From positions 1 through 64,000 of the forward strand of contig NZ_CP094242.1 of NCBI RefSeq assembly GCF_022749515.1: DNA of 64,000 bases. The letters are read 5' to 3'. Positions 4,742-39,074 of this stretch are shown here, piece after piece. How positions within the stretch are numbered: the first letter of the stretch is position 1; each line of letters starts with the position of its first letter. The notes beneath the pieces were generated by a model. The model was not told the origin of the DNA and did not search any database. It was given only the letters and a program-made list of their open reading frames with translations. Made by a program: the position numbers and the translations under genes. Origin of the DNA: Morococcus cerebrosus (GTDB taxonomy: Bacteria; Pseudomonadota; Gammaproteobacteria; Burkholderiales; Neisseriaceae).

Positions 4742-5638
4742 TTATTTACTCCTATTGCTTGATGATTGAATGTTAACTGGATCATTTTCTGCCGTGTGTG
4801 TAAATCCAAGGATTATGTCTGCTGACTGTTTTTCCAGTTTTTGCCAGTCATATAACCTTTGACGGCTGTAAAGTAAATCTATTGTAACTTGGATACCGTT
4901 CATCAATTTGAAGCGATGGCGACATGGGGGATTAGGTACATCTTTGTTAGAGCACTTGATATAGCTTCGGACATGACCGCTTTTATCTCTTGCGATAAAC
5001 AAATCATCAGATTCAAAGTTTTCAAAACGGTACGGTTTACCGGTTTTTGGATCGGTACCAGGAACGATATACCGTTGCAATCCATATAGGGTTTCTGAAA
5101 TTTTGACATAATGGTAAGACGGCAGCTCAGGTTTCTTTTCCAAATCCCTATTTAAAAACGTATCTAAAAAATCAGGACGATTCATAATCTCATTGTTACT
5201 CTCTATTCCAACTAACACCCAAGGCGAAGCAGGCTGATTTTCTTCTTCGTAGAAATCTCCGTCATTACGGGTATCCCTAATCTTTCCCGTATTATGGTTC
5301 ATATAAAACCCCATAGATGTAATTTTAGAATCGTAGGTGCGGGGGGGGGCTTGGTAGTCTCCCCATTCTTTGGCAAACGGTGAGGGGGTATCTGCATACA
5401 TCACATCCTGCACTGTATAATCCACCATGTGGACACGTGCACCACCCAAAGTGCCGATAATATCAGGAGCATCATAAACCGGTGGTAATGCACCTCTAAC
5501 TTTGTAATTGGGAGGTAGAGGGTTGATTTTACTTTTTTCTTTCGGATATTTGGATGGCTGCGGGCAAGCAGACAGTGAAATAACGGAAAACAAAAGAAGA
5601 AGCTGGAAAATTAAGCGGTTCATCTGGATAAGGGTCAT
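4742..5638 (-). CDS. Lipoprotein, candidate immunity partner, with 9-C tract
   Basis: 298 residues with a lipoprotein signal: a hydrophobic stretch, then lipobox LSAC with Cys25, then a Pro/Lys-rich linker. No family recognised. The ATG at 5638 has AAGGAAA upstream; a second ATG five codons in would also leave a signal peptide. A run of nine C on the coding strand (5341-5349) encodes Ala97-Pro-Pro-Arg. A one-base slip would truncate the protein near residue 100 and uncouple the downstream gene. Paired with the effector-like gene it could be a periplasmic inhibitor; that role is inferred from position only. No homology was checked. Confidence 0.6.
   Translation of the reverse strand: MTLIQMNRLIFQLLLLFSVISLSACPQPSKYPKEKSKINPLPPNYKVRGALPPVYDAPDIIGTLGGARVHMVDYTVQDVMYADTPSPFAKEWGDYQAPPRTYDSKITSMGFYMNHNTGKIRDTRNDGDFYEEENQPASPWVLVGIESNNEIMNRPDFLDTFLNRDLEKKPELPSYHYVKISETLYGLQRYIVPGTDPKTGKPYRFENFESDDLFIARDKSGHVRSYIKCSNKDVPNPPCRHRFKLMNGIQVTIDLLYSRQRLYDWQKLEKQSADIILGFTHTAENDPVNIQSSSNRSK
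5341..5349 (-). repeat. Homopolymeric C(9) tract in coding sequence
   Basis: Nine G on the + strand, nine C in the lipoprotein reading frame. Tracts of this length in Neisseria genes are typical slipped-strand phase-variation sites. In this sequence the frame is ON. Confidence 0.8.
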
Positions 5639-26082: not shown

Positions 26083-26718
26083 TTAATCCTGTGGGAAATG
26101 TTGCAGTTGGATGACGTGATGATGAACTTTATAAGGTAATCCTGATGTACTGTGAGTATGTGTAGTTGTTAAACTCAGTCCTGCTCTATCTTCGTGAGCA
26201 TCTAAAAATGTCAGCCCTTCTATCTCTGTGCTTTCAGACAGGATTCTTTCCCTCCATTCATTTAAAACAGCAGTGGCTTTCTTTTTAGAAGATTTATTAA
26301 CAATGTAAATGAACAAGCCTCCTTCTGAGCATGTAGGGCTACCACTTGCATATCTATTTATTAATTGATGAAAACCTTTCAGAGAATAGGCTGTTCCATC
26401 ACTTAATTTAGCTTCTCCTAGCCATAAATACCGTTTTAATTCAATATGAATATCAACATGACCACCTGCATGGTTATCGTGAGTTACCTTAAAAAGTGTA
26501 TGCTCAAATCTCCCTTTAAGATACATAACCAAATTAAATGAAATTAGATCTTCACTTTGGTTGCATAGCATATCTTTATGCTTTTCCAGCTCAATAATCC
26601 CATTAATGATTTCCTCATTAATCAGATTGTAGAATATTGCCTTGTCTCTTTGTGCAATTAAACATTTTGCTTCAAATGAATCATCCTTCTGCAAATCATA
26701 AAGAGTGAAATTTTCCAT
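26083..26718 (-). CDS. Putative PD-(D/E)XK nuclease, third gene of AT-rich operon
   Basis: 211 residues, soluble. A nuclease-type core is visible: Glu56 in an N-terminal helix, then Asp89 in GGHVDIHIE, then Glu102-x-Lys104 in LWLGEAKL, followed by a helix with Gln118 and Tyr123 (GFHQLINRY). The spacing E-x32-D-x12-E-x-K suits PD-(D/E)XK enzymes. The C-terminal part is His-rich (TTTHTHSTSG, YKVHHHVIQLQH). Its ATG overlaps the TAA of the middle gene by one base. By eye it is far more AT-rich than its neighbours, suggesting acquisition. A defence or DNA-processing role is inferred from the fold and context; the specificity is unknown. Confidence 0.6.
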   Translation of the reverse strand: MENFTLYDLQKDDSFEAKCLIAQRDKAIFYNLINEEIINGIIELEKHKDMLCNQSEDLISFNLVMYLKGRFEHTLFKVTHDNHAGGHVDIHIELKRYLWLGEAKLSDGTAYSLKGFHQLINRYASGSPTCSEGGLFIYIVNKSSKKKATAVLNEWRERILSESTEIEGLTFLDAHEDRAGLSLTTTHTHSTSGLPYKVHHHVIQLQHFPQD

Positions 26719-27149
26719 TAAGTGTTACCTCTCTTCTTCAATTGAATTGAAAGTTCACTTAATGTAAAAGTAATATATAAAAGATTAGGATTAAACTTAG
26801 ATTGGATATTTCCATTATCAAGCGTAATATATCCGCTTTCTTGAATATCAGCTAACTCTTCTTCCGTTAGTTCAATAGGCTCATCACTATACTCATCAAC
26901 ATATCGATAAATAGGTTCTAACAAATGCCATTGTGTACCGCATAAAAAGAAGAAAATATCTACAATAACATTTTTGTCGGATTCTTGCGTAATTTCTGCA
27001 ATGCGTTTTGGAGTAATATTTCTTAATAGTTCTAGCTTTGTAGATTGAATATAAGACACAAGTGAAAGCAGCCGCACTCTTTGCGTATCAGTCAAAGAGT
27101 TAGCTCCCTTTATTTCTTCAATAATTGAGGAAAAGGTATGTGCTTTCAT
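26718..27149 (-). CDS. Unknown protein, second gene of AT-rich operon
   Basis: 143 residues, mostly helical and acidic, with SLTDTQRVRLLSLVSYIQ, VIVDIFFFLCGTQWHLLEPI and an acidic ELTEEELADIQESGYI stretch. No signal peptide and no clear membrane span. No family recognised. It begins 12 bp after the upstream gene and overlaps the downstream nuclease-like gene by one base, so the three products are probably made together, perhaps as a complex. Confidence 0.6.
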   Translation of the reverse strand: MKAHTFSSIIEEIKGANSLTDTQRVRLLSLVSYIQSTKLELLRNITPKRIAEITQESDKNVIVDIFFFLCGTQWHLLEPIYRYVDEYSDEPIELTEEELADIQESGYITLDNGNIQSKFNPNLLYITFTLSELSIQLKKRGNT

Positions 27150-27161
27150 AGCAAATAATAT

Positions 27162-28280
27162 CTAAGCTAAATCAAAAATCTTTTGGGTAAGCATATCTAA
27201 ATCTTCTTGGCAAGCACAATCATCAATTTCAACAATATAACATGCTGATACCCTTGCCGTACCTTCCAAAAAACTTTTATAGCCTAAAGAGGCTGTTGGT
27301 TCAAATAATTCAGTAGTTGATATAGAAGTCCATTTCTTTTCAATAGCATGAAGCTCTGTTCTTGATTGGATAGCTTCCATTCCACTCATATGATAAGGTT
27401 CAAGTCTTAAATCTTCTCTATTATTCCTTCTATCTAATTTTTCATGTTTTACTGAACCTGAATCAGTGTAATGGCTAAAACTTGTTACTCTTCCTCCTTC
27501 TTCGCTATATAAAGAGCGAATTGCATTACCAATATTTTTCTTTCTAGCACTTTTTAAATTAGGATATATATTAACCAAATATTTAAATAAAGAATCTGAT
27601 AAGTAATCCATATCACTTTGGCTGGTTATTGCTGTTGCATCGCTAAATAGTGTAAGCAATTTTGCCTCTTTATCAAAAGTAAAATAACTTATCAATTGTT
27701 TAAAATCCTGCCTGATTGCAATAACTTCATCATATAAACCTACATCAAATTGAAGAAAGTAATCTTGAACATCTTCTGGTGCTTCTCCTAAAATAAATTC
27801 TTTTCGTTTACGAAAAGATTTACGTCCGCATACCCAAAACTTACTTGTATGACCTTCATCATTAAATTCATCCGAAATGCAAAATAATTGAGTACTTTGA
27901 GTTTCCAGAATCTGTCTAGGTAGCAAATTTGGAAAATTTCTAGCATATTCAGTATTGGAATGTTTTTGAATTTCTTCTTTAAGCTTGATTTCAAATTCAT
28001 TCAATTCTTGATCTGAAAGAGTTGAAATATCAAAAAATACAACAGCTTTCTTGCCAAAATTCAAACTTCTATTATATTCAGCTTCAAGAACTTTTTTTAT
28101 TTTGTTAAGTATTGGGTTGTGGTCTAACAATTCGCTTACTTTTTCTTTTAAGCTAGACCATGATTGCACTCTGAAAATACCGTTGCTAAATAAAATTCGG
28201 CTTAATTTGCGGATAGAATAATCACGTTCTTGCAAAAAACCAATTAAAGTTAAAATGTCTTTTTTTGTTTCATCTATCAT
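27162..28280 (-). CDS. Unknown protein, first gene of AT-rich operon
   Basis: 372 residues, soluble. The N-terminus (DILTLIGFLQERDYSIRKLS) looks like a small helical, possibly DNA-binding, segment. The middle has a GKKAVVFFDISTLSDQE strand and an ARKKNIGNAIRSLYSEEGG helix. The C-terminus has paired cysteines (IDDCACQEDLD). No known domain recognised. AGAGGA precedes the ATG at 8 bp. It could be a sensor or effector partner of the nuclease-like protein. Strong AT bias sets it apart from hrpA and the SWIM gene on either side. Confidence 0.6.
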   Translation of the reverse strand: MIDETKKDILTLIGFLQERDYSIRKLSRILFSNGIFRVQSWSSLKEKVSELLDHNPILNKIKKVLEAEYNRSLNFGKKAVVFFDISTLSDQELNEFEIKLKEEIQKHSNTEYARNFPNLLPRQILETQSTQLFCISDEFNDEGHTSKFWVCGRKSFRKRKEFILGEAPEDVQDYFLQFDVGLYDEVIAIRQDFKQLISYFTFDKEAKLLTLFSDATAITSQSDMDYLSDSLFKYLVNIYPNLKSARKKNIGNAIRSLYSEEGGRVTSFSHYTDSGSVKHEKLDRRNNREDLRLEPYHMSGMEAIQSRTELHAIEKKWTSISTTELFEPTASLGYKSFLEGTARVSACYIVEIDDCACQEDLDMLTQKIFDLA

Positions 28281-28368: not shown

Positions 28369-31300
28369 TTATTTCACCCCCTCCCACACCTTCAACAACC
28401 TCTTCAGCGACATCGGATACGGCGTCTTCAATTCCTGCGCGAACAGCGATACCCTCAATTCTTCAATCATCCATTTAAACGCGGCGAGGTCGTCTGAAAC
28501 GGGTAGTCCTTGTTTCACCAAGCTGTCGGTTTTTTCCTGCCACATCTGTTCCAATTCCTGTATGTCGGCTTCGCGGGCTGCGTCGCGGGCGGGGTTGCTG
28601 CTGTATTTTTCGAGGCGCAGGGTCATGGCTTTGAGGTAGATGGGGAGGCGCGGCCATTGTGCCCACGGGGTATGGCTGGCGAAGCCGGGAGCGAGCAGGG
28701 TTTGCAGGCGTAGTCTTAGAAGATGGGTCAATGGATGTTTGCCGAGTTTGCTATTCAGTTCGGCGTAGGCGGCTGCGGTTTCCTGTAAGTAGCGGCTGAG
28801 GGCTTCTTTGACGGCGGGCAGGCGGCTGCGGGCGCGTTTGATTTGTTCTTTGAAGGCTTTTTCGTTGCGCGGCAGCTCGTCTTCGCCGATAAAGGCGCGG
28901 TCGCAGACGGCTTGGGTGAGGTCGTCGCGCAGGGTGTCGGCGTTGATGTGTTTGAGCAACATGGCGGCTTGGGTGAAGCCTTGGATACCTTTGTTCAGGT
29001 CTTTAACTTGTTCTTTTAGTTGTAGTTTCATGAGTTCGATCACGCCTAATCTGTGGGCTTGTTCGGCGGCGACAGACGTGTCGAACAGGCGCAGGGCGAT
29101 GCGGCCGTCTTTTTCTTTTTGTAGGCCGAGGTAGCCGGTGAGTTGTTGTTTGCCGCGTGCGAATTTGATGGATTCGGGCAGGGTGCCGATGTCCCATGTG
29201 GTGACGTTGTCGCGCTCGAATTCTTGGGTGTTGTCGCGGAAGGTGGTGGCGGCGGCTTTGCCAAGTTGTTGTTGGATTTGGATTAAATCGCGCCCCATGG
29301 CTAATTCTTGTCCGCCGTCGTCGATGATGCGGAGGTTGAAATAGCAGTGTTCGGGCAGCCTGAACGCGGCCCATTCGTCTTGGTTGATTTGCTCCAGTAT
29401 GCGGATGTCGCCTGCGGTTTTGGCGATGGCTTGGGCGAGTTGGGGCAGGATGGGGGCGTTGCGGTCGGGGTTTTGGCTTAAAAATTGGGTGATGAATTCG
29501 GGCACGGGCACGCAGATGCGGCGGATTTGCTTAGGCAGTGCTTTGATTTGTAACTGGATTTTTTCGCGTATCATGCCGGGCACGAGCCATTCGAGGGCGG
29601 CGGGGCTGATGCGGTTGAGCACGGTGAGCGGCAGGGTGAGGGTAACGCCGTCGAGCGGGTGGTGTGGCTCGAAGCGGTAGCTGAGTTTGAATTTGCCGTC
29701 TGCGGTTTGCCAGTGTTTGGGGAATTGTTCTTCGGTGATGTGCGCGGCGGCGTGCTGCATGAGGTCGTCGCGGCTGAGGAACAGCAGGCGCGGGTTGTCG
29801 CGCTCGGCGGTTTTGAGCCAGGCTTGGAAGGTGCGGATGTCGGCAAGGGGGAGGGGTTTCAGACGGCCTTTTGGGGGTGCAGGCTGCTTTTTGGGTTTGG
29901 GGTCGTCTGAAACATTTTGTAGGGTGTGTGAACTCGGTTCACGCACGCGGTTGCCCGTATCTTTGGAATCCGTGTGCGTGGCTTGCGCCACACATTCTAC
30001 GTTGTGCTTTTGAGATTTTAGGACATCTGTTGCATCCGCTCGTGCCAATAAGATGAGTTCGCCGGCAGTCTCAGCATCGAGATAGTGTACCAAGCCGGCT
30101 TCGTCAAATTGCGCCATTACGCCGCTTTGTAATGTCGCCCATTCTTCGGCGGAACCGATGGACGGGTCGCATTGCTGCTCGGCAATCAAGGCAACGATTT
30201 TGCCGTGCCATTGTTTGCTGTCGATAGTTACACGGTCACCCAGCAGTATTGGTTGACCGTCGGCGTAGCATAGGGAGTTTTCAGGTAGCCTTTGGGCTTT
30301 GGGGTCGTCTGAAACCGTTGAAGCGGCGGCACTCTGTTCCCTCTCCTGTGGGAGAGGGTTAGGGAGAGGGCTTGCTGTGGTTGCGGAAAAGTTGGTTTGG
30401 GCGGCAACTGTTTTGCCCTCTCCCCGGCCCTCCCCCGCGGGGGAGGGGGTAGTTTGTGCGACCGCATCAATGCTGTCGGTTTGCAAAATCATGCGGTAAT
30501 TGATTAAAACCGAGCCGTTTCGCTGAATTTGGTTTTGGTGTTGCAGTATAAATCCCTGTTTCTTAAAAAAGGGCAATGCGGCTGCGGACACATCTGCCGT
30601 TACCGTTTTATCTGCATCCGCCTGCGGCAAAACGGCAGACAACAGCGCGGAAGCGACGCCTTGCCGCTGGTGGACAGGGTCGGTAAATAGGCAGTCCAAA
30701 TGATTTTGCTCGGGCAGGTATTCGATAAAGCCGAGGATACGGTCATTTTGCGCTGCCAATCGGATACAGCTGCGTCCAATCCGTTTTTGCCAAAAGGCGG
30801 CATTGTCCGCGCCCTGTATCCATGCGGCTTTTTCGCTGTCGCTATAATAGCTTGCTTCAATGTGCAGGACGGCGCGGCGGAATAGTTCGGCAATTTGGGC
30901 TGCATCATTATGTGTGGCGGGGCGTATACGGAATGTTGCTATGGACGATTTCAGACTGCCTGAAACCGTTGAAACTGCGGTACTCTGTTCCCTCTCCTGT
31001 GGGAGAGGGTTAGGGAGAGGGTTTGCTACGGCTGCGGAAAAGTTGGTTTGTGCGGGAACTGTTTTGCCCTCTCCCCAGCCCTCCTTCGCAGGGGAGGGGG
31101 CAGTTTGCTGGGCGTCGTAGGTTGGGTTGCCAAACCCAACGGTTTTTGCGGTTGCGGCGGGTGTTGGGTTTTCAACCCAACCTACGGTGTTGCCGTGATT
31201 TTCATTTTGGCGAGACGCGTTACGCTCGTTTTGGCAAAACTCGTTGCGCTCATTTTCAGACGATCTCCCGGCTTTGTCAGATTCAATAATCCGTACGGAA

Positions 31301-32568
31301 TCTTCACTTCCCCAAACGCTGCCTTGCGCGTCTTTCCACGCCGTTTCGGGCAGCCGTTCGTGATAAAACGCAAACAGCGCTTCATTATCGACCAGCACGT
31401 CTTGCTTGCGCGATTTGTGTTCGAGTTCGGTAATTTCCTTAATCAGCTTTTTGTTGTGGACAAAAAATTCCGCTTTCAAATCGCATTCCTGCGCCACCAG
31501 TGCGCTGCGGATAAAGATTTCGCGTGCTTCTTCGGGGGCGATTCTGCCGTAGGACACGGGGCGACGCGGCAAGACGGTCAGGCCGTAGAGCGTTACCCGT
31601 TCGCTGGCGATGACTTCGCCGCGTTTTTGTTCCCAGTGCGGTTCGAAATAGTGGTAGCGGACGAGGTGCGGTGCTTCCTGCTCGATCCATTCGGGCTGGA
31701 TGGCGGCTACATCGCGCGCATAAAGCCTTGTCGTTTCAACGAGTTCTGCCGCCATCACCCATTTGGGTTTGGCTTTGAACAGGGTGGAGGCGGGGAAAAG
31801 GTGGAAGCGGCTGCCGCGCGCACCGGTGTAGTCGTTGCCGTCGGGCGATTTCATGCCGACGTTGGCGATGAGGCCGGTGAGCAGGGCGCGGTGGATTTGT
31901 TCGTAGCCCGCTTCTTTGGCGGCACGGATTTGGGCGCGGTGTTGCTTCTTATCCAGTTGTTTTTGTTTGAGTTTGGCGGATAAGTCTTGGTCGCCCGCAT
32001 TTTCAGACGACGTGAGCTGCCTGACTTCGGGAGGTCGTCTGAAAGCGACTTCCTTGGTGGTCAAACCCATTTCAATCGCGGTTTGGGCAAGCTGGTGGTG
32101 CAGCTCGCGCCATTCGCGCATCCGCAGGTGCGACAGGAAATATTGGCGGCACCATTGCACCAACTGTTTGTTGGACAAGCCTTTATCACGCTCGCGCTGG
32201 AAGCTGTCCCAAATGTTCAGGTAGGCAAGAAAATCGGACTGCTTGTCGGTAAAACGTTCGTGTGCCTTGGCTGCGGCATCGCGCGCTTCCAGCGGCCGCT
32301 CGCGCGGGTCTTGAATCGACAGCGCGGACGCAATCACCAATATTTCCGCCATGCAGTCGTGCTTCTTCGCCGCCAGCAAAATGCGTGCGATTTTCGGGTC
32401 GATGGGCAGGCGCGCCATTTGTTCGCCGAGTTTGGTCAGGCGGTAGCGGGGAGGGGCGACGATATTGCCCGAAACGTTTTGAAGGTCGTCTGAAACGGTT
32501 TTGTCGTTTGTCGGATTGTGTCGGGCATGAATGCCCGAGCCGCGTGCTTGATTTTTAGTGTTTTGCAT
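28369..32568 (-). CDS. hrpA: HrpA helicase, C-terminal part, with captured domains
   Basis: 1399 residues in one frame. Residues 38-425 are the normal HrpA continuation after the helicase core (RYRLTKLGEQMARLPIDPK onward), and residues 905-1399 are the normal C-terminus (FEPHHPLDGVTLTLPLTVLN etc). Between them lie about 475 foreign residues. These are translated DUS and CTCTCC repeats, a GNAT domain (545-695), a second repeat block, and a small domain (766-845). The first ~37 residues are also repeat-derived (TVSDDLQ is a DUS in frame). It has no helicase motifs I-VI, which are on the separate N-terminal frame at 35127-36521. It may be a non-functional remnant or one half of a two-chain protein. 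That the long frame stays open argues for some selection, or for recent origin. Confidence 0.85.
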   Translation of the reverse strand: MQNTKNQARGSGIHARHNPTNDKTVSDDLQNVSGNIVAPPRYRLTKLGEQMARLPIDPKIARILLAAKKHDCMAEILVIASALSIQDPRERPLEARDAAAKAHERFTDKQSDFLAYLNIWDSFQRERDKGLSNKQLVQWCRQYFLSHLRMREWRELHHQLAQTAIEMGLTTKEVAFRRPPEVRQLTSSENAGDQDLSAKLKQKQLDKKQHRAQIRAAKEAGYEQIHRALLTGLIANVGMKSPDGNDYTGARGSRFHLFPASTLFKAKPKWVMAAELVETTRLYARDVAAIQPEWIEQEAPHLVRYHYFEPHWEQKRGEVIASERVTLYGLTVLPRRPVSYGRIAPEEAREIFIRSALVAQECDLKAEFFVHNKKLIKEITELEHKSRKQDVLVDNEALFAFYHERLPETAWKDAQGSVWGSEDSVRIIESDKAGRSSENERNEFCQNERNASRQNENHGNTVGWVENPTPAATAKTVGFGNPTYDAQQTAPSPAKEGWGEGKTVPAQTNFSAAVANPLPNPLPQEREQSTAVSTVSGSLKSSIATFRIRPATHNDAAQIAELFRRAVLHIEASYYSDSEKAAWIQGADNAAFWQKRIGRSCIRLAAQNDRILGFIEYLPEQNHLDCLFTDPVHQRQGVASALLSAVLPQADADKTVTADVSAAALPFFKKQGFILQHQNQIQRNGSVLINYRMILQTDSIDAVAQTTPSPAGEGRGEGKTVAAQTNFSATTASPLPNPLPQEREQSAAASTVSDDPKAQRLPENSLCYADGQPILLGDRVTIDSKQWHGKIVALIAEQQCDPSIGSAEEWATLQSGVMAQFDEAGLVHYLDAETAGELILLARADATDVLKSQKHNVECVAQATHTDSKDTGNRVREPSSHTLQNVSDDPKPKKQPAPPKGRLKPLPLADIRTFQAWLKTAERDNPRLLFLSRDDLMQHAAAHITEEQFPKHWQTADGKFKLSYRFEPHHPLDGVTLTLPLTVLNRISPAALEWLVPGMIREKIQLQIKALPKQIRRICVPVPEFITQFLSQNPDRNAPILPQLAQAIAKTAGDIRILEQINQDEWAAFRLPEHCYFNLRIIDDGGQELAMGRDLIQIQQQLGKAAATTFRDNTQEFERDNVTTWDIGTLPESIKFARGKQQLTGYLGLQKEKDGRIALRLFDTSVAAEQAHRLGVIELMKLQLKEQVKDLNKGIQGFTQAAMLLKHINADTLRDDLTQAVCDRAFIGEDELPRNEKAFKEQIKRARSRLPAVKEALSRYLQETAAAYAELNSKLGKHPLTHLLRLRLQTLLAPGFASHTPWAQWPRLPIYLKAMTLRLEKYSSNPARDAAREADIQELEQMWQEKTDSLVKQGLPVSDDLAAFKWMIEELRVSLFAQELKTPYPMSLKRLLKVWEGVK
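30034..30273 (-). other. Captured small domain inside hrpA
   Basis: Residues 766-845 of the hrpA C-part (ADGQPILLGDRVTIDS ... SGVMAQFDEAGLVHY). It reads like a free-standing short protein of about 80 residues with a GDRV start and an EEWATLQSGVM core. Not part of HrpA. Bounded by an Eikenella-type DUS at 30280-30291. Confidence 0.55.
30310..30456. repeat. 147-bp direct repeat, copy 1, inside hrpA
   Basis: GAAACCGTTGAA followed by two CTCTCC-type inverted repeats. It matches 30961-31107 at an offset of 651 bp with scattered changes. Translated as PSPAGEGRGEG ... PLPNPLPQEREQ. Confidence 0.85.
30484..30936 (-). other. Captured GNAT acetyltransferase inside hrpA
   Basis: Residues 545-695 of the hrpA C-part form a complete GNAT fold. 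FRIRPATHNDAAQIAELF is the N-terminal strand-helix, FTDPVHQRQGVASALL is motif A with the acetyl-CoA loop QRQGVA, and ALPFFKKQGF is motif B. The codon where an initiator Met is expected (TFRIR preceded by Ile-Ala) is ATA, so it now lacks its own start. It lies between the 147-bp direct repeats. Confidence 0.8.
30961..31107. repeat. 147-bp direct repeat, copy 2, inside hrpA
   Basis: Second copy of the repeat at 30310-30456, on the other side of the GNAT cassette. Translated as PSPAKEGWGEG ... PLPNPLPQEREQ. Confidence 0.85.
32482..32524. repeat. 43-bp direct repeat, copy 1
   Basis: AGGTCGTCTGAAACGG to TTGTGTCGGG. It differs from 34308-34350 at one base. The two copies flank the phosphoethanolamine-transferase-like gene. 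This copy is translated inside the hrpA C-part. Confidence 0.9.
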
Positions 32569-32636
32569 AGTCTTGTAGGTCAGGCATTGATGCCCGACGT
32601 GGTCTCAATTTATATTGTTTGTAGGTTTGCGCCGCC

Positions 32637-34211
32637 TTATTGCGGATAAACATATTCCGCTTTGCCGTTGCGGATGTTCAGGCTGCCCGCATCGCCTGTA
32701 ATCAGGTTGCCCGTTACCGAGCCTTCGGTGCAGCCTGAAACCTTCATATCGTAGCCCAGCGTGTGAATAAGGAAAGTTGAAAGCTGCTGGTGGAAGGCAA
32801 TTTCGCAAGGCGCAAAGGCTTGGTTGGCGGATTGCTGCAGAGCGGCATCAGGGCTGTATAACACTAGCGGTACGATGTAGCTGTCGGGATGTACCGTGCC
32901 TTGGTTGAAGGTGTCTTGGTGCACATACTGCCCGTGGTCTGAGGTATAGACAAACAACCAGTTGTTTTCAGGCTGTTTTTGCAGCTGCTGGAACACGGTT
33001 TGGATCATTTGGTCGGTTTTGTGGATGGTGCTGTCGTATTTGTCCACGATATTGGCTTCGCCGAACACCTTATCCTGCTGCTGCAACAGCGCGCCGTATG
33101 GAACGTGCGAACCGCGTTGGTGCAACACAATAAAATGCTTGCCCTGCTGCAAATTGATTTTATCGAACAACGGCAGCAGCTTATCGTCGGGCATATTGTC
33201 TCCGTTGCGGTAGCCGAGTTGAGTCGGCTGAATCAGATGGTCGATCCACTTTTTGCCGATCAGGTTCAAAATCGCCATCTCGTTTTCCGCCTGCGCGCTG
33301 TAAAAATACGTTTCGTACCCCTGCTCTTTGGCGAGTCGGAACATATTGGTATCGCCGCTGCTGATTTGTTTGTAGCCGTTGGCATGCGGTATGGCATTGA
33401 AAAAGCTGGGCAGGGACACCGCCGTCATCAAAGCGGCAGAATAGCTTTGTTTCACAATCGGCTTAAAGTCGGCTTGCGACAGTTGGGTCAAAAACGGCGA
33501 AGTTTCGCGTCCGTAGCCAAACAGTTTCAAATGCGCCGCGCTTTCGCTTTCTCCCATGATGAGGATGATATTTTGAATACTGCCCTGTCCGGTTTTGCTT
33601 GGTGCGGGCTGTTTGAACACAGGAATCTTGCTTAAATCAAACAATTGATACGGCAATACGCGCCCGACAAAATAGCCGAAGCTGAAATAATTGGCTTTGA
33701 CGCGGCTGTATGTCGGTTTGGGCGAAATACCGTGTTCCTGCGTCGTACTGAATGAACGCCCAAAAATCAGCAACATCGCCGCAGCGAACAATATATCGGC
33801 GGCAAAATGCGTCTTACGGCGGAACTTGGCAAGGCTGCTAAACAGCACGACTTCCGCCACACCCCACAACGCAGGCAGCCACAACTTATCAAACATCGAC
33901 GCCCCCGCGCTGCCGACTTCAGTAATCTCTTTCAGCATCAACCAATAGTTAATGCCCGTCATCCAGCTTTGATAAACCGCGTAATGCACATTATTGGCAA
34001 TGATGCTGAACGCGAAAAACAACGCAATCAGCAGCCGCGAAGTTTTATAACGCGCAAACAGATACAGCGCAGCAATCACAAATGTCAGCGCAAACGTTTC
34101 CGCCATTTTTGCTGCCGGCAGAGTTTCAATCCCGAATACAAAGCGATAGGCGATTTCGCTGGCAGTAAGTAGGGATGAATACAGAAAGAGAACGAAAAGG
34201 GATTTTTTCAT
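32637..34211 (-). CDS. Lipooligosaccharide phosphoethanolamine transferase-like protein
   Basis: 524 residues from the ATG at 34211 (an upstream in-frame extension of 16 codons is less likely). N-terminal part with about five membrane helices (to ~160), then a periplasmic sulfatase-fold domain. The nucleophile region is GESESAAHLKLFGYGRETSP (from residue 220). The metal site includes SDHG at 424-427 and an HPDSYIVPLVLYSP block. The closest recollection is the Lpt3/Lpt6 group that decorates neisserial LOS heptose, rather than lipid A EptA. The gene sits inside a split hrpA between 43-bp direct repeats, in the same orientation as hrpA. No good ribosome site is seen. Confidence 0.75.
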   Translation of the reverse strand: MKKSLFVLFLYSSLLTASEIAYRFVFGIETLPAAKMAETFALTFVIAALYLFARYKTSRLLIALFFAFSIIANNVHYAVYQSWMTGINYWLMLKEITEVGSAGASMFDKLWLPALWGVAEVVLFSSLAKFRRKTHFAADILFAAAMLLIFGRSFSTTQEHGISPKPTYSRVKANYFSFGYFVGRVLPYQLFDLSKIPVFKQPAPSKTGQGSIQNIILIMGESESAAHLKLFGYGRETSPFLTQLSQADFKPIVKQSYSAALMTAVSLPSFFNAIPHANGYKQISSGDTNMFRLAKEQGYETYFYSAQAENEMAILNLIGKKWIDHLIQPTQLGYRNGDNMPDDKLLPLFDKINLQQGKHFIVLHQRGSHVPYGALLQQQDKVFGEANIVDKYDSTIHKTDQMIQTVFQQLQKQPENNWLFVYTSDHGQYVHQDTFNQGTVHPDSYIVPLVLYSPDAALQQSANQAFAPCEIAFHQQLSTFLIHTLGYDMKVSGCTEGSVTGNLITGDAGSLNIRNGKAEYVYPQ

Positions 34212-34307
34212 AATAGGAAGTTCACAATAAAAGTTGCAGGCAGGGTTAGGGCTCGGCAACGGTATTCTTCAGCAGCTATCTGTTTACAGATTGTTTTTTA
34301 AAAAACG

Positions 34308-34350
34308 AGGTCGTCTGAAACGGTTTTGTTGTTTGTCGGATTGTGTCGGG
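34308..34350. repeat. 43-bp direct repeat, copy 2
   Basis: Matches 32482-32524 except T for C at one position. It lies just upstream of the transferase gene and begins with a DUS. Confidence 0.9.
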
Positions 34351-34370
34351 TATTTGTGCCCGACAAAAAA

Positions 34371-35039
34371 TTAGGAGTTAGCTTTTTTGTCATCTTCCCA
34401 ATATGGCAATATGTCTTCACGCAAATAAAAGGAACGTTGCAATATGGAAAAACACCAAAAAGATATTATAAAAAATAAAAAATATATAACCATGCCTAAT
34501 AAAATATTATTTTCTGCAACGGAATTCAGTATTATAACGATATCTATCAATATGGATTTACTAGACTTTCCAAAGCAACCTAGGATCGAAAAAATGAGAA
34601 TTCCCCATGTTGCAGAAAAAATAAAGTTTATTTTTTGTAAATTTGCTTTTTCTTCTTGATAAGCACTCCATAATACAGAATTATTTTCTTTCACTGCTTT
34701 TCTTCTTAATCGGTACAATGATTTTCTATAATCTGTATTTTCGTTTTCAAACATATAAATATTAAATTTTGATAGAATAGTTAAGATAACAGAAAAATAA
34801 ATTCCTTGAATAATAGGAACAATTACAGAAAAAATAAAAGAGAAAAGGATAACAGATTCAAAAATGCTGTATAGGTCTAAATTTTTCTGTTTATTTAAAA
34901 GTGCTGTAATAGAAAATCCATGTCTTAAATTTAAATACATATCGAAAAATGAAATTATCAGCAATGATGCCAAAAACCATTCGAGTCTCATCAATCTCTG
35001 TAATAATCCGTTGCTGAGTTTTTCTAAAATATCGCTCAT
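34371..35039 (-). CDS. AT-rich membrane protein of unknown function
   Basis: 222 residues. About four hydrophobic helices (near 20-40, 58-88, 140-158, 178-200) with a charged central loop (ENTDYRKSLYRLRRKAVKEN). No family recognised. Its base composition is much more AT-rich than hrpA or the transferase, like the operon at 26083-28280. It lies between the two halves of hrpA, 87 bp from the stop of the N-terminal half. It may be an immunity-type membrane protein; nothing proves this. Confidence 0.65.
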   Translation of the reverse strand: MSDILEKLSNGLLQRLMRLEWFLASLLIISFFDMYLNLRHGFSITALLNKQKNLDLYSIFESVILFSFIFSVIVPIIQGIYFSVILTILSKFNIYMFENENTDYRKSLYRLRRKAVKENNSVLWSAYQEEKANLQKINFIFSATWGILIFSILGCFGKSSKSILIDIVIILNSVAENNILLGMVIYFLFFIISFWCFSILQRSFYLREDILPYWEDDKKANS

Positions 35040-35126
35040 TTATTATTCCTTCAATGTTTGTATGATAAAGTAATTATGCTATCGTTCCCCGATTTTCGTT
35101 AGACATCAATGCCCGTCCTATGCTTT

Positions 35127-36521
35127 TCAGACGACCTCCACCGCCCCCAATTCCAGCAACACCTGAAAACCATCATTGATATACCGCGAATCGGGCATTT
35201 CTAAAAACGGGAATGCCGCCACGTCGCCGAATTTCAACGCTGCCATGCGCAGAATGACGGCGGCGAGGTTGCTGCGGACGATTTCCGGGTCGGTGAATTC
35301 GGGGCGGCTGTTGAAATCTTCTTCTGAAAACAGTCGGATACATACGCCTGCGGAGACGCGGCCGCAGCGGCCGGAACGTTGGCGGGCGGCGGCTTGGGAG
35401 ATTTTTTCGACATGAAGCTGCTCCACTTTCGCCCGTGCGGAATAGCGTTTAACGCGCGCGAGGCCGGTGTCGATGACGTATTTGATGCCCGGCACGGTGA
35501 GCGAGGTTTCGGCGACGTTGGTTGCCAGCACGATGCGGCGTTTTGCGCCTGAAGGGTGGAAGATTTTGTGCTGTTCGGCGTGCGACAGGCGTGCGAACAG
35601 GGGCAGGATTTCGTCGTTGCGGCGCAGCGTGGATTTGCGCAGGGCTTCGGCGGCTTCGCGGATTTCGCGCTCGCCCGGCAGGAATACCAAGATATCGCCT
35701 TCGCCGTAGCGTGCCAATTCGTCGGCTGCATCGACAATCGCGTCGGTCAGCTCGACTTCTGCGTCGTCTTCGTCTTTGCTGGTCAGCGGTTGGTAGAGGA
35801 TTTCGACGGGATAGGTGCGCCCGCTCACTTCTAAAACAGGCGCGCCGTTAAAGTGTTGGGAGAAGCGTTCTGCGTCTATCGTTGCCGAGGTGATGATGAC
35901 TTTCAAATCGGGGCGGCGCGGCAGGAGCTGTTTCAGGTAGCCCAAGAGGAAGTCGATGTTCAGGCTGCGTTCGTGTGCTTCGTCGATGATAATCGTGTCG
36001 TAGGCGGCGAGATAACGGTCGGTTTGCGTTTCCGCCAGCAGGATGCCGTCGGTCATCAGCTTGACGCAGGCATCGCGCGAGGTGTGGTCGGTGAAGCGCA
36101 CCTTATAGCCGACCGCGCTGCCGATTTCCGATTTCAGCTCTTCGGCAATCCGCTCTGCCACCGAACGCGCGGCTAAACGGCGCGGCTGGGTATGCCCGAT
36201 CAGCCCCGCCGCCCCGCGCTCGAGTTCCAAACAAATCTTGGGCAACTGCGTGGTTTTGCCCGAACCGGTTTCGCCGCAAATAATCGTTACCTGATTTTCG
36301 GCAATGACTTTTTTGATTTCTTCGAGTTTCTCGTGAACGGGCAGGGTGTTGTCGAACTCGGGTTTGGGTAGTTTGGACAGGCGTTGCAGATAGAGGTCGT
36401 GCGATTTTCGGTATTTTTCTTCGACTTTGGACAAACCGCCGTATTTGTTGGGATTTTTGAAGGCGGAACGTAGGAAGTGGCGGTCTTTGGAGAGGGTTTG
36501 GGAGAGGTCGGGATGGGGCAT
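35127..36521 (-). CDS. hrpA: HrpA helicase, N-terminal part (split gene)
   Basis: DEAH-box RNA helicase core. 464 residues: Walker A GETGSGKTT (83-91), motif Ia TQPRRLAA, DEAH at 180-183, SAT at 212-214, motif V ATNVAETSLTVPGI and motif VI QRSGRCGR. The full protein is normally about 1300 residues. Here the frame stops after ELGAVEVV because GTC GTC TGA belongs to a DUS that marks the edge of inserted DNA. The next native residues are found only at 32455 and below, in the 1399-residue frame. ATPase and unwinding motifs are complete, but the ratchet and OB domains are missing. Confidence 0.93.
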   Translation of the reverse strand: MPHPDLSQTLSKDRHFLRSAFKNPNKYGGLSKVEEKYRKSHDLYLQRLSKLPKPEFDNTLPVHEKLEEIKKVIAENQVTIICGETGSGKTTQLPKICLELERGAAGLIGHTQPRRLAARSVAERIAEELKSEIGSAVGYKVRFTDHTSRDACVKLMTDGILLAETQTDRYLAAYDTIIIDEAHERSLNIDFLLGYLKQLLPRRPDLKVIITSATIDAERFSQHFNGAPVLEVSGRTYPVEILYQPLTSKDEDDAEVELTDAIVDAADELARYGEGDILVFLPGEREIREAAEALRKSTLRRNDEILPLFARLSHAEQHKIFHPSGAKRRIVLATNVAETSLTVPGIKYVIDTGLARVKRYSARAKVEQLHVEKISQAAARQRSGRCGRVSAGVCIRLFSEEDFNSRPEFTDPEIVRSNLAAVILRMAALKFGDVAAFPFLEMPDSRYINDGFQVLLELGAVEVV

Positions 36522-36593: not shown

Positions 36594-37673
36594 GGCGGAT
36601 TCGCATTTGAAGTGCAACTTTCCATAACAGAAAAAGGCCAGTATGCGGTAGCATACGGCCTTTCCTGCAAGAAAGATTGCCATGAGCTACACACAACTGA
36701 CCCAAGACGAACGATACCATATCCAATACCTGTCCCGCCACTGCACCATCGCCGAAATCGCCAAACAGCTCAACCGCCACAAAAGCACCATCAGCCGAGA
36801 AATCAAGCGGCACTGCATCCAAGGACAGCAATACAGCGCCGATAAAGCCCAACGGCAAAACCGGCTGACCAAACAGCACCGGCGAAAACCCTATAAGCTC
36901 GATTCGCAGCTGGTTCAACACATCGACACCCTTATCCGCCGCAAACTCAGTCCCGAACAAGTATGTGCCTACCTGCATAAACACCACGGGATCACACTCC
37001 ATCACAGCACCGTTTACCGCTACCTCCGCCAAGACAAAAGCAACGGCGGCACTTTGTGGCAACACCTCAGAATATGCAGCAAACCCTACCGCAAACGCTA
37101 CGGCAGCACATGGACCAGAGGCAAAGTGCCCGACCGCGTCGGCATAGAAAACCGACCTGCTATCGTCGACCAGAAAACCCGCATCGGCGATTGGGAGGCC
37201 GACACCATCGTCGGCAAAAATCAGAAAAGCGCGTTATTGACCTTGGTCGAACGCACTACCCGCTACACCATCATCTGCAAATTAAAGAACTTAAAAGCCG
37301 AAGACACTGCCCGGGCGGCCATTAGGGTATTAAAGGCATATAAAGCCAGAGTCCACACCATCACCATGGATAACGGCAAAGAGTTCTACCAACACACCAA
37401 AATAGCCAAAGCCTTGAAGGCGAAAACCTATTTTTGCCGCCCTTACCATTCTTGGGAGAAAGGGCTGAATGAGAACACCAATGGACTCATCCGGCAATAT
37501 TTCCTCAAACAAACCGATTTCCGAAACATCAGCGATCGGGAGATACGCAGGGTTCAAGATGAGTTGAACCACCGGCCGAGAAAAACACTTGGCTACGAAA
37601 CGCCAAGTGTTTTATTCTTAAATCTGTTCCAACCACTGGTACCCTAGTGTTGCACTTGAAATCCGAATCCAAG
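36594..37673 (+). mobile_element. IS1655-like element, complete copy (IS30 family)
   Basis: 1080 bp. Termini GGCGGATTCGCATTTG and (complement) CTTGGATTCGGATTTC are imperfect inverted repeats, matching over GGATTCG-ATTT-AAGTGCAAC. A 3-bp duplication GAC flanks it (36591-36593 and 37674-37676). A strong stem-loop (36634-36662) lies just before the transposase start. Confidence 0.92.
36682..37647 (+). CDS. IS1655-like transposase (IS30 family)
   Basis: 321 residues. The N-terminal helix-turn-helix (RYHIQYLSRHCTIAEIAKQL, from residue 11) binds the ends. The DDE integrase core has Asp in IGDWEADTIVG, Asp in HTITMDNGKEF and Glu in SWEKGLNENTNG. The reading frame is intact. It differs from the copy at 38021 at a few residues (SADKAQRQN versus SAEKAQKQS, QYFLKQ versus QYFPKQ), so the two are not a fresh duplication of each other. 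Confidence 0.95.
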   Translation: MSYTQLTQDERYHIQYLSRHCTIAEIAKQLNRHKSTISREIKRHCIQGQQYSADKAQRQNRLTKQHRRKPYKLDSQLVQHIDTLIRRKLSPEQVCAYLHKHHGITLHHSTVYRYLRQDKSNGGTLWQHLRICSKPYRKRYGSTWTRGKVPDRVGIENRPAIVDQKTRIGDWEADTIVGKNQKSALLTLVERTTRYTIICKLKNLKAEDTARAAIRVLKAYKARVHTITMDNGKEFYQHTKIAKALKAKTYFCRPYHSWEKGLNENTNGLIRQYFLKQTDFRNISDREIRRVQDELNHRPRKTLGYETPSVLFLNLFQPLVP

Positions 37674-37994: not shown

Positions 37995-39074
37995 CTTGGA
38001 TTCGGATTTCAAGTGCAACACTAGGGTACCAGTGGTTGGAACAGATTTAAGAATAAAACACTTGGCGTTTCGTAGCCAAGTGTTTTTCTCGGCCGGTGGT
38101 TCAACTCATCTTGAACCCTGCGTATCTCCCGATCGCTGATGTTTCGGAAATCGGTTTGTTTGGGGAAATATTGCCGGATGAGTCCATTGGTGTTCTCATT
38201 CAGCCCTTTTTCCCAAGAATGGTAAGGGCGGCAAAAATAGGTTTTCGCCTTCAATGCTTTGGCTATTTTGGTGTGTTGGTAGAACTCTTTGCCGTTATCC
38301 ATGGTGATGGTGTGGACTCTGGCTTTATATGCCTTTAATACCCTAATGGCCGCCCGGGCAGTGTCTTCGGCTTTTAAGTTCTTTAATTTGCAGATGATGG
38401 TGTAGCGGGTAGTGCGTTCGACCAAGGTCAATAACGCGCTTTTCTGATTTTTGCCGACGATGGTGTCGGCCTCCCAATCGCCGATGCGGGTTTTCCGGTC
38501 GACGATAGCAGGTCGGTTCTCTATGCCGACGCGGTCGGGCACTTTGCCTCTGGTCCATGTGCTGCCGTAGCGTTTGCGGTAGGGTTTGCTGCATATTCTG
38601 AGGTGTTGCCACAAAGTGCCGCCGTTGCTTTTGTCTTGGCGAAGGTAGCGGTAAATGGTGCTGTGATGGAGTGTGATCCCGTGGTGTTTATGCAGGTAGG
38701 CACATACTTGTTCGGGACTGAGTTTGCGGCGGATAAGGGTGTCGATGTGTTGAACCAGCTGCGAATCGAGCTTATAGGGTTTTCGCCGGTGCTGTTTGGT
38801 CAGCCGGCTTTGCTTCTGTGCTTTTTCGGCGCTGTATTGCTGTCCTTGGATGCAGTGCCGCTTGATTTCGCGGCTGATGGTGCTTTTGTGGCGGTTGAGC
38901 TGTTTGGCGATTTCGGCGATGGTGCAGTGGCGGGACAGGTATTGGATATGGTATCGTTCGTCTTGGGTCAGTTGTGTGTAGCTCATGGCAATCTTTCTTG
39001 CAGGACAGGCCGTATGCTACCGCATACTGGCCTTTTTCTGTTATGGAAAGTTGCACTTCAAATGCGAATCCGCC
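37995..39074 (-). mobile_element. IS1655-like element, complete inverted copy
   Basis: 1080 bp with the same ends as the copy at 36594, in the opposite orientation, flanked by GAC (37992-37994 and 39075-39077). Again the insertion lies inside the GACGACC part of a DUS. Confidence 0.92.
38021..38986 (-). CDS. IS1655-like transposase (IS30 family)
   Basis: 321 residues, intact, with the same HTH and DDE features as the copy at 36682. It agrees with the partial copy at 1-261 at the residues that can be compared (QYFPKQTDF). The transposase of this copy and that of the 36682 copy face each other across 321 bp. Confidence 0.95.
   Translation of the reverse strand: MSYTQLTQDERYHIQYLSRHCTIAEIAKQLNRHKSTISREIKRHCIQGQQYSAEKAQKQSRLTKQHRRKPYKLDSQLVQHIDTLIRRKLSPEQVCAYLHKHHGITLHHSTIYRYLRQDKSNGGTLWQHLRICSKPYRKRYGSTWTRGKVPDRVGIENRPAIVDRKTRIGDWEADTIVGKNQKSALLTLVERTTRYTIICKLKNLKAEDTARAAIRVLKAYKARVHTITMDNGKEFYQHTKIAKALKAKTYFCRPYHSWEKGLNENTNGLIRQYFPKQTDFRNISDREIRRVQDELNHRPRKTLGYETPSVLFLNLFQPLVP

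Follow-up and report, generated by a model that had tools for sequence, protein, structure and literature searches.

How can a gene for a core helicase be interrupted by unrelated genes, again and again at the same place, and still be kept? This question is raised by hrpA in the first 64,000 nucleotides (nt) of the Morococcus cerebrosus contig NZ_CP094242.1 (assembly GCF_022749515.1; hereafter the window), where the helicase gene lies in two pieces with two other genes between them. Comparison with related genomes indicates that the locus is very likely a split-gene cassette site, in which both halves of hrpA are kept while the gap between them is repeatedly refilled through transformation and recombination in the hrpA arms.

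The motifs of the helicase were located, as in the original prediction, on a frame of 464 amino acids (aa), which aligns to positions 16-466 of the 1,284 positions of the HrpA model and keeps GETGSGKTTQ, DEAH, SAT, and QRSGRCGR (motifs I, II, III, and VI) intact (Table 1). The remainder of HrpA was matched on the 1,399-aa frame to which it had been assigned, i.e., HA2_C, the OB fold, and DUF3418, and the HrpA model TIGR01967 scored 762.6 and 762.8 bits on the two halves taken alone (cut-off, 722.75). The two intervening genes (222 and 540 aa) are unrelated to hrpA and foreign to it, as had been proposed. At the left edge, GAGGTCGTCTGAAAA, the stop codon TGA of the motor half is supplied by a DNA uptake sequence. 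At the right edge, the start codon ATGCAAAAC is followed by a 43-aa leader holding a second uptake sequence and then by native hrpA sequence. The inserts were correctly expected to be bordered by uptake sequences, but the one at the left edge does not read through, its TGA ending the motor half, and a survival of the gap inserts by read-through was not supported. Read-through or a frameshift joining the halves was rejected, because a stop codon and whole genes intervene.

Table 1. Coordinates of the split hrpA locus and its inserts in the window
Feature	Position	Strand	Remarks
hrpA 5' half, 464 aa	35127..36521	(-)	RecA1-RecA2 motor and first part of winged helix; HrpA model, motifs
DNA uptake sequence AGGTCGTCTGAAA	35125..35137	(-)	Left junction; TGA at 35127-35129 is the motor-half stop
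Cargo gene 1	34371..35039	(-)	222-aa hydrophobic-looking protein, without family match
Scar	34308..34363	(-)	Duplicate (91%) of a stretch of the C-half leader (32483-32538), between the two cargo genes
Cargo gene 2, sulfatase family, 540 aa	32637..34259	(-)	PF00884 (Sulfatase), E 1.6e-45
hrpA 3' half, 1,399 aa	28369..32568	(-)	Remaining part of winged helix, then ratchet, OB fold, hypervariable linker, and DUF3418
C-half start codon ATGCAAAAC with 43-aa leader	32440..32568	(-)	ATGCA start in other split rows
Uptake sequence within leader	32483..32495	(+)	Inverted relative to the left-junction uptake sequence
In-frame hypervariable linker, 495 aa (1,485 nt)	29857..31341	(-)	Between OB region and DUF3418
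Repeat CCCTCTCCCTAACCCTCTCCC, upstream copy	31001..31021	(-)	In linker
GNAT acetyltransferase domain	30484..30852	(-)	In linker; PF13673, E 5.5e-16, aa 573-695
Repeat CCCTCTCCCTAACCCTCTCCC, downstream copy	30350..30370	(-)	In linker
Second small domain	30030..30290	(-)	In linker, approximate limits; like one in the G004 mfd linker, by eye

The split is common in the genus, which is Neisseria by inference from locus L002 (Neisseria viridiae, 94%) and the uptake sequences. Matches were obtained in 45 of 46 genus genomes searched; G030 (no match) as well as G031 and G033 (fragments) were excluded from the 46 hrpA rows used in the comparisons below. hrpA is split at one and the same site in 34 of the 43 readable genomes, comprising 33 contiguous loci and G012, and intact in nine (G002, G015, G017, G029, G032, G034, G036, G038, and G043). 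Locus L002, on a Neisseria viridiae contig, is likewise split. Among the best 80 of at least 584 matching loci, 75 of the 79 besides L002 have HrpA in one frame of at least 1,100 aa; of the other four, L003 and L049 reach the contig end, and L051 and L077 have shorter frames. In the family outside the genus, 36 of 37 genomes match and 31 have frames of at least 1,290 aa. Motor frames of split length occur there in G048, G049, and G082, and shorter frames in G052 (939 aa) and G057 (778 aa); the C-terminal half of G049 was not found within the stretch fetched. The capture is therefore not the event of a single strain that it had seemed, and the comparison across genus genomes bore out the predicted repeated landing site with differing cargo. 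As a separate observation, some intact HrpA proteins carry extra in-frame sequence inside the motor, e.g., about 100 aa near motor residue 229 in G034 (L141) and smaller stretches in G038 and G054.

Comparison with intact relatives, by which the junctions were to be fixed, revealed one cut site: in them, motor residue 461 runs straight into the match of second-frame residue 43 or 44. The cut lies inside the winged-helix domain, because Pfam HA2_N (winged helix) covers residues 455-479 of the intact proteins of G036 and G002. In the split G013, the start of the second half matches only positions 15-29 of the HA2_N model, below the cut-off. Judged by DEAH helicase structures, the cut presumably falls at the turn of the wing hairpin. 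The matching place in Escherichia coli HrpA is position 475 of PDB chain 6zwx_A.

In a tree built from 46 hrpA rows, the intact form takes the basal position, and 3 changes account for the split state, compared with a mean of 10.0 after shuffling (0 of 500 shuffles as low); the intact G002 and G036 are nested within the split clade. On a 59-row tree, 4 changes are needed, because G082, which belongs to another genus, is split and its sister G065 is intact. Both trees were quick ones without bootstrap, with L003 left out of the first and L002 out of the second. hrpA appears to have been ancestrally one gene, whose parts flank the gap as separate genes only through the split. The idea of a long HrpA as the ancestral form, raised together with the original prediction, is contradicted by the basal position of the uninterrupted gene on both trees.

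Transfer of the split between lineages is indicated by G082. Compared with the intact G065, codons 421-501 contain 67 differences in 243 nt and the remaining sequence 186 in 3,684 nt (P = 2e-27), and the synonymous (pS) and nonsynonymous (pN) differences are 0.70 and 0.178 in codons 426-500 versus 0.191 and 0.010 in the rest of the gene. The synonymous rise around the cut marks the segment as foreign, not merely relaxed, and the split of G082 thus arrived with foreign hrpA arms. A faster change near the cut was rejected as the cause, because synonymous sites are strongly affected and the pair G036/G000 has no such rise. Five control sister pairs gave P values of 0.07 to 0.75 in the same test. 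A donor of the tract was not found within the sequence set, in which the nearest row reaches 71.6%. In the reverse direction, 21 of 183 nt in codons 441-501 of the intact G002 differ from G041 versus 181 of 3,783 elsewhere (P = 3e-4; against G045, P = 0.02; pS, 0.40 versus 0.15), which is, as a weaker case, what would be expected for an imported intact allele. Homologous recombination in the flanks is thus documented by the tract ends of G082 and, less clearly, by G002.

The gaps are 0.9 to 10.5 kb long, and their cargo genes differ between species. From the 80 gap open reading frames (ORFs) of at least 60 aa in the 33 contiguous split loci, 35 representatives were scanned with PADLOC, and a locus was counted as a defense locus if its cargo, or a cluster mate, matched PADLOC specifically. 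Outside both the scan and the scanned clusters lie five G007 genes of 109 to 263 aa, a 164-aa gene of G006, a 283-aa gene of G045, and small ORFs up to 110 aa except a 95-aa gene of G020; the gaps of G012, G048, and G082 are also outside the scan. Defense cargo of known or candidate families was recorded, directly or via a cluster mate, in 16 of the 33 loci and represents ten PADLOC system types, including the candidate types PDC-S01, PDC-S35, and PDC-M01. Restriction-modification genes are present in G005 (HindVP), G008 (LlaMI), G016 (NgoBV), G024 (BpuJI), and G011 (a D12 methylase, with a neighboring gene without match). Other cargo comprises GmrSD-type genes (G021), Mokosh (G040, G041, and G045), AriAB (G006), DarTG (G009), SoFic (G003), a type VI retron reverse transcriptase (RT) with a helix-turn-helix gene (G020 and G025), PtuA/PDC-M01 (G044), and TIR/PDC-S35 (G001); G025, G041, and G045 were counted through cluster mates. 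We take AriAB of G006 to be the system named PARIS. The weak cold-shock match of G004 was not counted. In a control from one genome, 44 other ORFs of the window gave matches of no more than 9 members to 7 PADLOC models (best, 1e-32), which have the look of generic cross-matches.

The 17 loci not counted as defense loci hold the sulfatase-family gene, a PIN-domain gene, or unknown or hydrolase-like genes, and the gap of G007 contains, by eye, apparently metabolic and regulatory genes. Cargo gene 2 of the window weakly resembles phosphoethanolamine transferases, at scores far below the cut-offs of those models, and homologues of it occupy this gap in 9 further genomes of the genus (as two pieces in G014) and in L002. 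Cargo without matches includes genes of 228 to 238 aa in G014, G022, and G026, of 271 aa in G035, and of 400 aa in G042 (L112-L152); the PIN-domain gene occurs in the gaps of G010, G018, G019, and G039. By position alone, the uncharacterized cargo and the PIN-domain gene are candidates for unrecognized defense genes.

Cargo moves independently of the hrpA flanks. The retron RTs of G020 and G025 are 92.6% identical at an hrpA identity of 84 to 86%, and MkoA (Mokosh) of G041 is 71 to 72% identical to that of G040 or G045 at an hrpA identity of 93 to 97%; the remaining cargo pairs are intermediate, and several sulfatase pairs are close to flank identity. Uptake-type motifs are concentrated at the gap edges (the 200 nt following the motor, plus 60 nt ahead of the C half and its first 140 nt), with 78 in 13,200 nt over 33 loci (5.9 per kb) compared with 47 in 91,493 nt of gap interior (0.51 per kb) and 0 in 44,979 nt of the motor half. 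Such a motif is present at 19 of 33 left and 28 of 33 right edges, and GTCTGA occurs within 15 nt before to 30 nt after the left junction in 21 of the 33 split loci. Leftover hrpA fragments were detected in 4 of 33 gaps, among them the window. A 394-nt piece of the C head, 76% like the genome's own C head, precedes the same sulfatase gene as in the window in G024, and in G005 and G045 a fragment of the C head is followed by one of the motor tail. These fragments are read as traces of cassettes that would have been added next to older ones; short hrpA matches in six more gaps were taken as common repeats. Downstream of hrpA, G011 (L122:8753-8953) and G028 (L138:7445-7699) carry another, partial copy of its 3' tail, so inserts may also land at the 3' end of the gene.

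Both hrpA halves are under purifying selection resembling that on intact hrpA. The median pairwise ratio of nonsynonymous to synonymous substitution rates (dN/dS) among split rows is 0.118 in the motor, 0.089 from winged helix to OB, and 0.198 in DUF3418 (522 to 528 pairs), and the values for intact rows are 0.096, 0.093, and 0.217 (16 to 28 pairs). Pairs were limited to a dS of 0.05 to 1.2, G042 and L002 were left out, and the intact set includes L004 and L027, with 16, 21, and 28 of 55 pairs usable within the dS range. Motifs I, II, and III are identical in every one of the 45 rows with data; for motif VI, 36 of the 46 rows read QRSGRCGR and 10 read QRAGRCGR. The second half is a gene in its own right, whose start is mostly conserved: of the 35 split rows, 25 have ATGCA as the earliest in-frame ATG of the C half and 32 have it among the first three, the exceptions being G006, G035, and G020. 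A run of C in the C-half leader of G020 (L130, near position 5055) seems to put the start out of frame; phase-variable switching could explain it, as could an error in sequencing. The leader of G011 contains a similar run of C, which is in frame.

These findings can be combined in the following scenario. Early in one clade, a cassette would have entered the winged-helix domain of an intact hrpA, providing a stop codon on the left (in the window within an uptake sequence) and a start codon with a short leader on the right. Since then, the halves would have been maintained as separate genes, most probably because their products still come together as one helicase. Cassettes flanked by hrpA arms, which provide homology in relatives, would arrive with DNA acquired by transformation, and recombination in these arms would swap or add cargo. 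An intact hrpA could be split by transfer of the whole unit, and a split one may be re-fused when an intact allele is imported. From the sequence comparisons we infer that transformation is the vehicle, that the halves assemble in trans, that there is a selective benefit, and that re-fusion occurs; assembly into one helicase is suggested because the constraint is similar and the intact G036 protein is nearly identical to the halves of G000 (dN of 0.014, 0.006, and 0.018). In the most far-reaching version, to which we give an even chance, HrpA would be an obligate two-subunit helicase born by fission, and the fission allele a transmissible, DNA-uptake-driven, and reversible defense cassette that splits the intact core gene of a new host but leaves it functional. 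If this is true, the cut gives defense cassettes a lasting harbor with built-in homology arms across species.

The halves might instead have parted ways, with motor and C-terminal half doing separate jobs and not assembling. Their physical uncoupling in G012 would agree with this view, and a bare motor is plausible as an ATPase, but the small difference between the intact G036 protein and the G000 halves and the absence of a noticeable constraint shift in any segment make it unlikely. That the site was made and is filled by a classical mobile element carrying an integrase or transposase of its own is very improbable: no recombinase common to the 33 gaps was found in the cargo clusters and families scanned, and the imported tract of G082 ends within hrpA on both sides, although an IS200-like transposase lies in the gap of G004, with a cluster mate in G010, and by eye a similar transposase gene in G082 and another transposase in G048. 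Even less credible is hrpA as a decaying pseudogene whose open frames are leftovers. hrpA is dispensable in other bacteria, and the C halves are broken in G042 (an assembly of 85% completeness) and G022 (140 contigs), but no variation exists in motifs I, II, and III among all 45 rows with data, motif VI reads QR[SA]GRCGR in all 46, the start is mostly kept, and decay was rejected because the median dN/dS of both halves (0.09 to 0.20) is near that of intact genes. A strain-specific accident or an assembly error joining distant pieces, the worry attached to the original prediction, can practically be dismissed, as 33 other genus genomes, many of them one-contig assemblies, have the same split and the window genome is one 2.57-Mb contig in which the motor half matches once.

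Several points weigh against the preferred explanation of a split-gene cassette site with a persisting two-piece helicase, the case for which is drawn from sequence throughout. In G012, some 31 kb separate the halves, which are on opposite strands of the same contig, and the second half of G020 has no in-frame ATG, apparently through the run of C; a few genomes (G012 and G020) may therefore be without a working pair of halves. Seventeen of the 33 loci, including the window, have no defense match in the cargo scanned. The change counts fit both two re-fusions and a split that spread laterally while some intact alleles were retained, and the 3 changes could also represent the latter. In the control pair G015/G043, the segment over the cut is the second most different one, with P = 0.16 in the test. 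Since the most different segment of G002 lies elsewhere in the gene and no foreign tract was found around the cut in the intact G036, re-fusion is less secure than the forward transfer.

A further insert lies within the second half, where about 475 foreign in-frame residues had been suspected. This part of the prediction stood insofar as a 495-aa linker with a GNAT domain and repeats is present, but the same capture process as in the gap did not hold, and a milder growth of the linker is indicated instead. The linker measures 1,485 nt in the window, 354 nt in the near relative G036, and 18 nt in L004 and the Snodgrassella locus L027. Across the genus it ranges from 27 to 1,917 nt. Its length is divisible by 3 in 44 of 46 rows, and the two that depart from this, G022 and G042, have broken frames in the C half. 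GNAT-like stretches occur in the linkers of G000, G018, G026, G004, G012, and G020. The reversed-pattern control for the linker repeat is weak, as the repeat reads nearly identically backwards. In mfd (a gene named by eye; L155-L160 from G000, G019, G026, G039, G012, and G004), the same in-frame repeats, of the GEGWGEG / PLPQEREQ type, sit in one linker in 5 of 6 cases; in G004, this mfd linker instead contains another kind of repeat and a small domain resembling that of the HrpA linker. The insert thus reflects a linker growth common in the genus and a process separate from the gap cassettes.

In the neighborhood of hrpA, two near-identical 321-aa transposases in opposite orientation, which we take to be IS30-like, lie upstream (36682-37647 [+] and 38021-38986 [-]). 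Three genes (211, 143, and 372 aa) beyond the 3' end (26083-28280) have no Pfam, NCBIfam, or PADLOC match; the 211-aa gene has, by eye, a nuclease-like pattern.

Gene fission is usually seen as rare and one-way. Here, within one bacterial family, a core enzyme was cut and retained, its split form was passed on at least once and perhaps repaired, and defense genes were frequent passengers. The locus offers biochemistry a natural split DEAH helicase, is a place to look for new neisserial defense systems (17 of 33 loci are without a defense match in the cargo scanned), and represents a test case of naturally competent bacteria moving cassettes by homology alone. A split helicase HrpA locus in Neisseria was not found in the literature searched, which did not extend to the 2007 catalogue of minimal mobile elements (MMEs) by Snyder et al. 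or to their 2004 paper, where the site may be listed. Term searches in PMC3082526, PMC2784325, PMC3898611, PMC8627216, PMC1097732, PMC5383966, PMC1538595, PMC4176332, and PMC7606547 yielded no split-HrpA locus. In these and related texts, a table lists NMB1368 as a putative RNA helicase (PMC5383966), a putative DNA helicase is among the cargo of an island (PMC8627216), and meningococcal "HrpA" denotes a two-partner-secretion protein, not the helicase (PMC9072670). No description of an MME- or hotspot-like site inside a core gene with both halves persisting was found in the literature searched.

The split hrpA belongs to the same DEAH-box helicase family as E. coli HrpA (PDB 6zww, 6zwx, and 9gft), which rescues collided ribosomes according to PMC13159725 and PMC11633108, citing Campbell et al. 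The E. coli protein is one chain in the solved structures, whereas here two genes, an added leader, and an expanded linker are present. The closest parallel of the locus is the MME of Neisseria, in which different whole-gene cassettes, often restriction-modification genes, lie between two conserved flanks and are moved by homologous recombination (PMC3082526, PMC3898611, and PMC8627216). Conserved flanks with varied whole-gene cargo likewise characterize the 33 contiguous split loci, and a transfer mechanism of their own is lacking in the same way: no recombinase is shared by the cargo sets in the clusters and families scanned, and transposase-like genes are carried by G004, G010, G048, and G082. 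Unlike in the MME, the flanks are halves of one ancestral gene instead of two separate conserved genes, the entry of the element splits a gene, and the split itself is inherited and transmissible. The core defense hotspots cDHS1 and cDHS2 of Pseudomonas aeruginosa hold variable defense systems at one site between core genes (PMC10250203). Several distinct defense systems at one conserved site are a common feature, but the hrpA site, with its gaps of 0.9 to 10.5 kb, lies inside the gene of a core enzyme and not between separate core genes. Rickettsia palindromic elements are small repeats kept in frame within proteins; they resemble only the in-frame linker growth of the second half and mfd, not the gap cassettes. 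The locus is best read as an MME-like defense hotspot inside a core gene that would survive as a two-piece helicase, presumably through assembly in trans.

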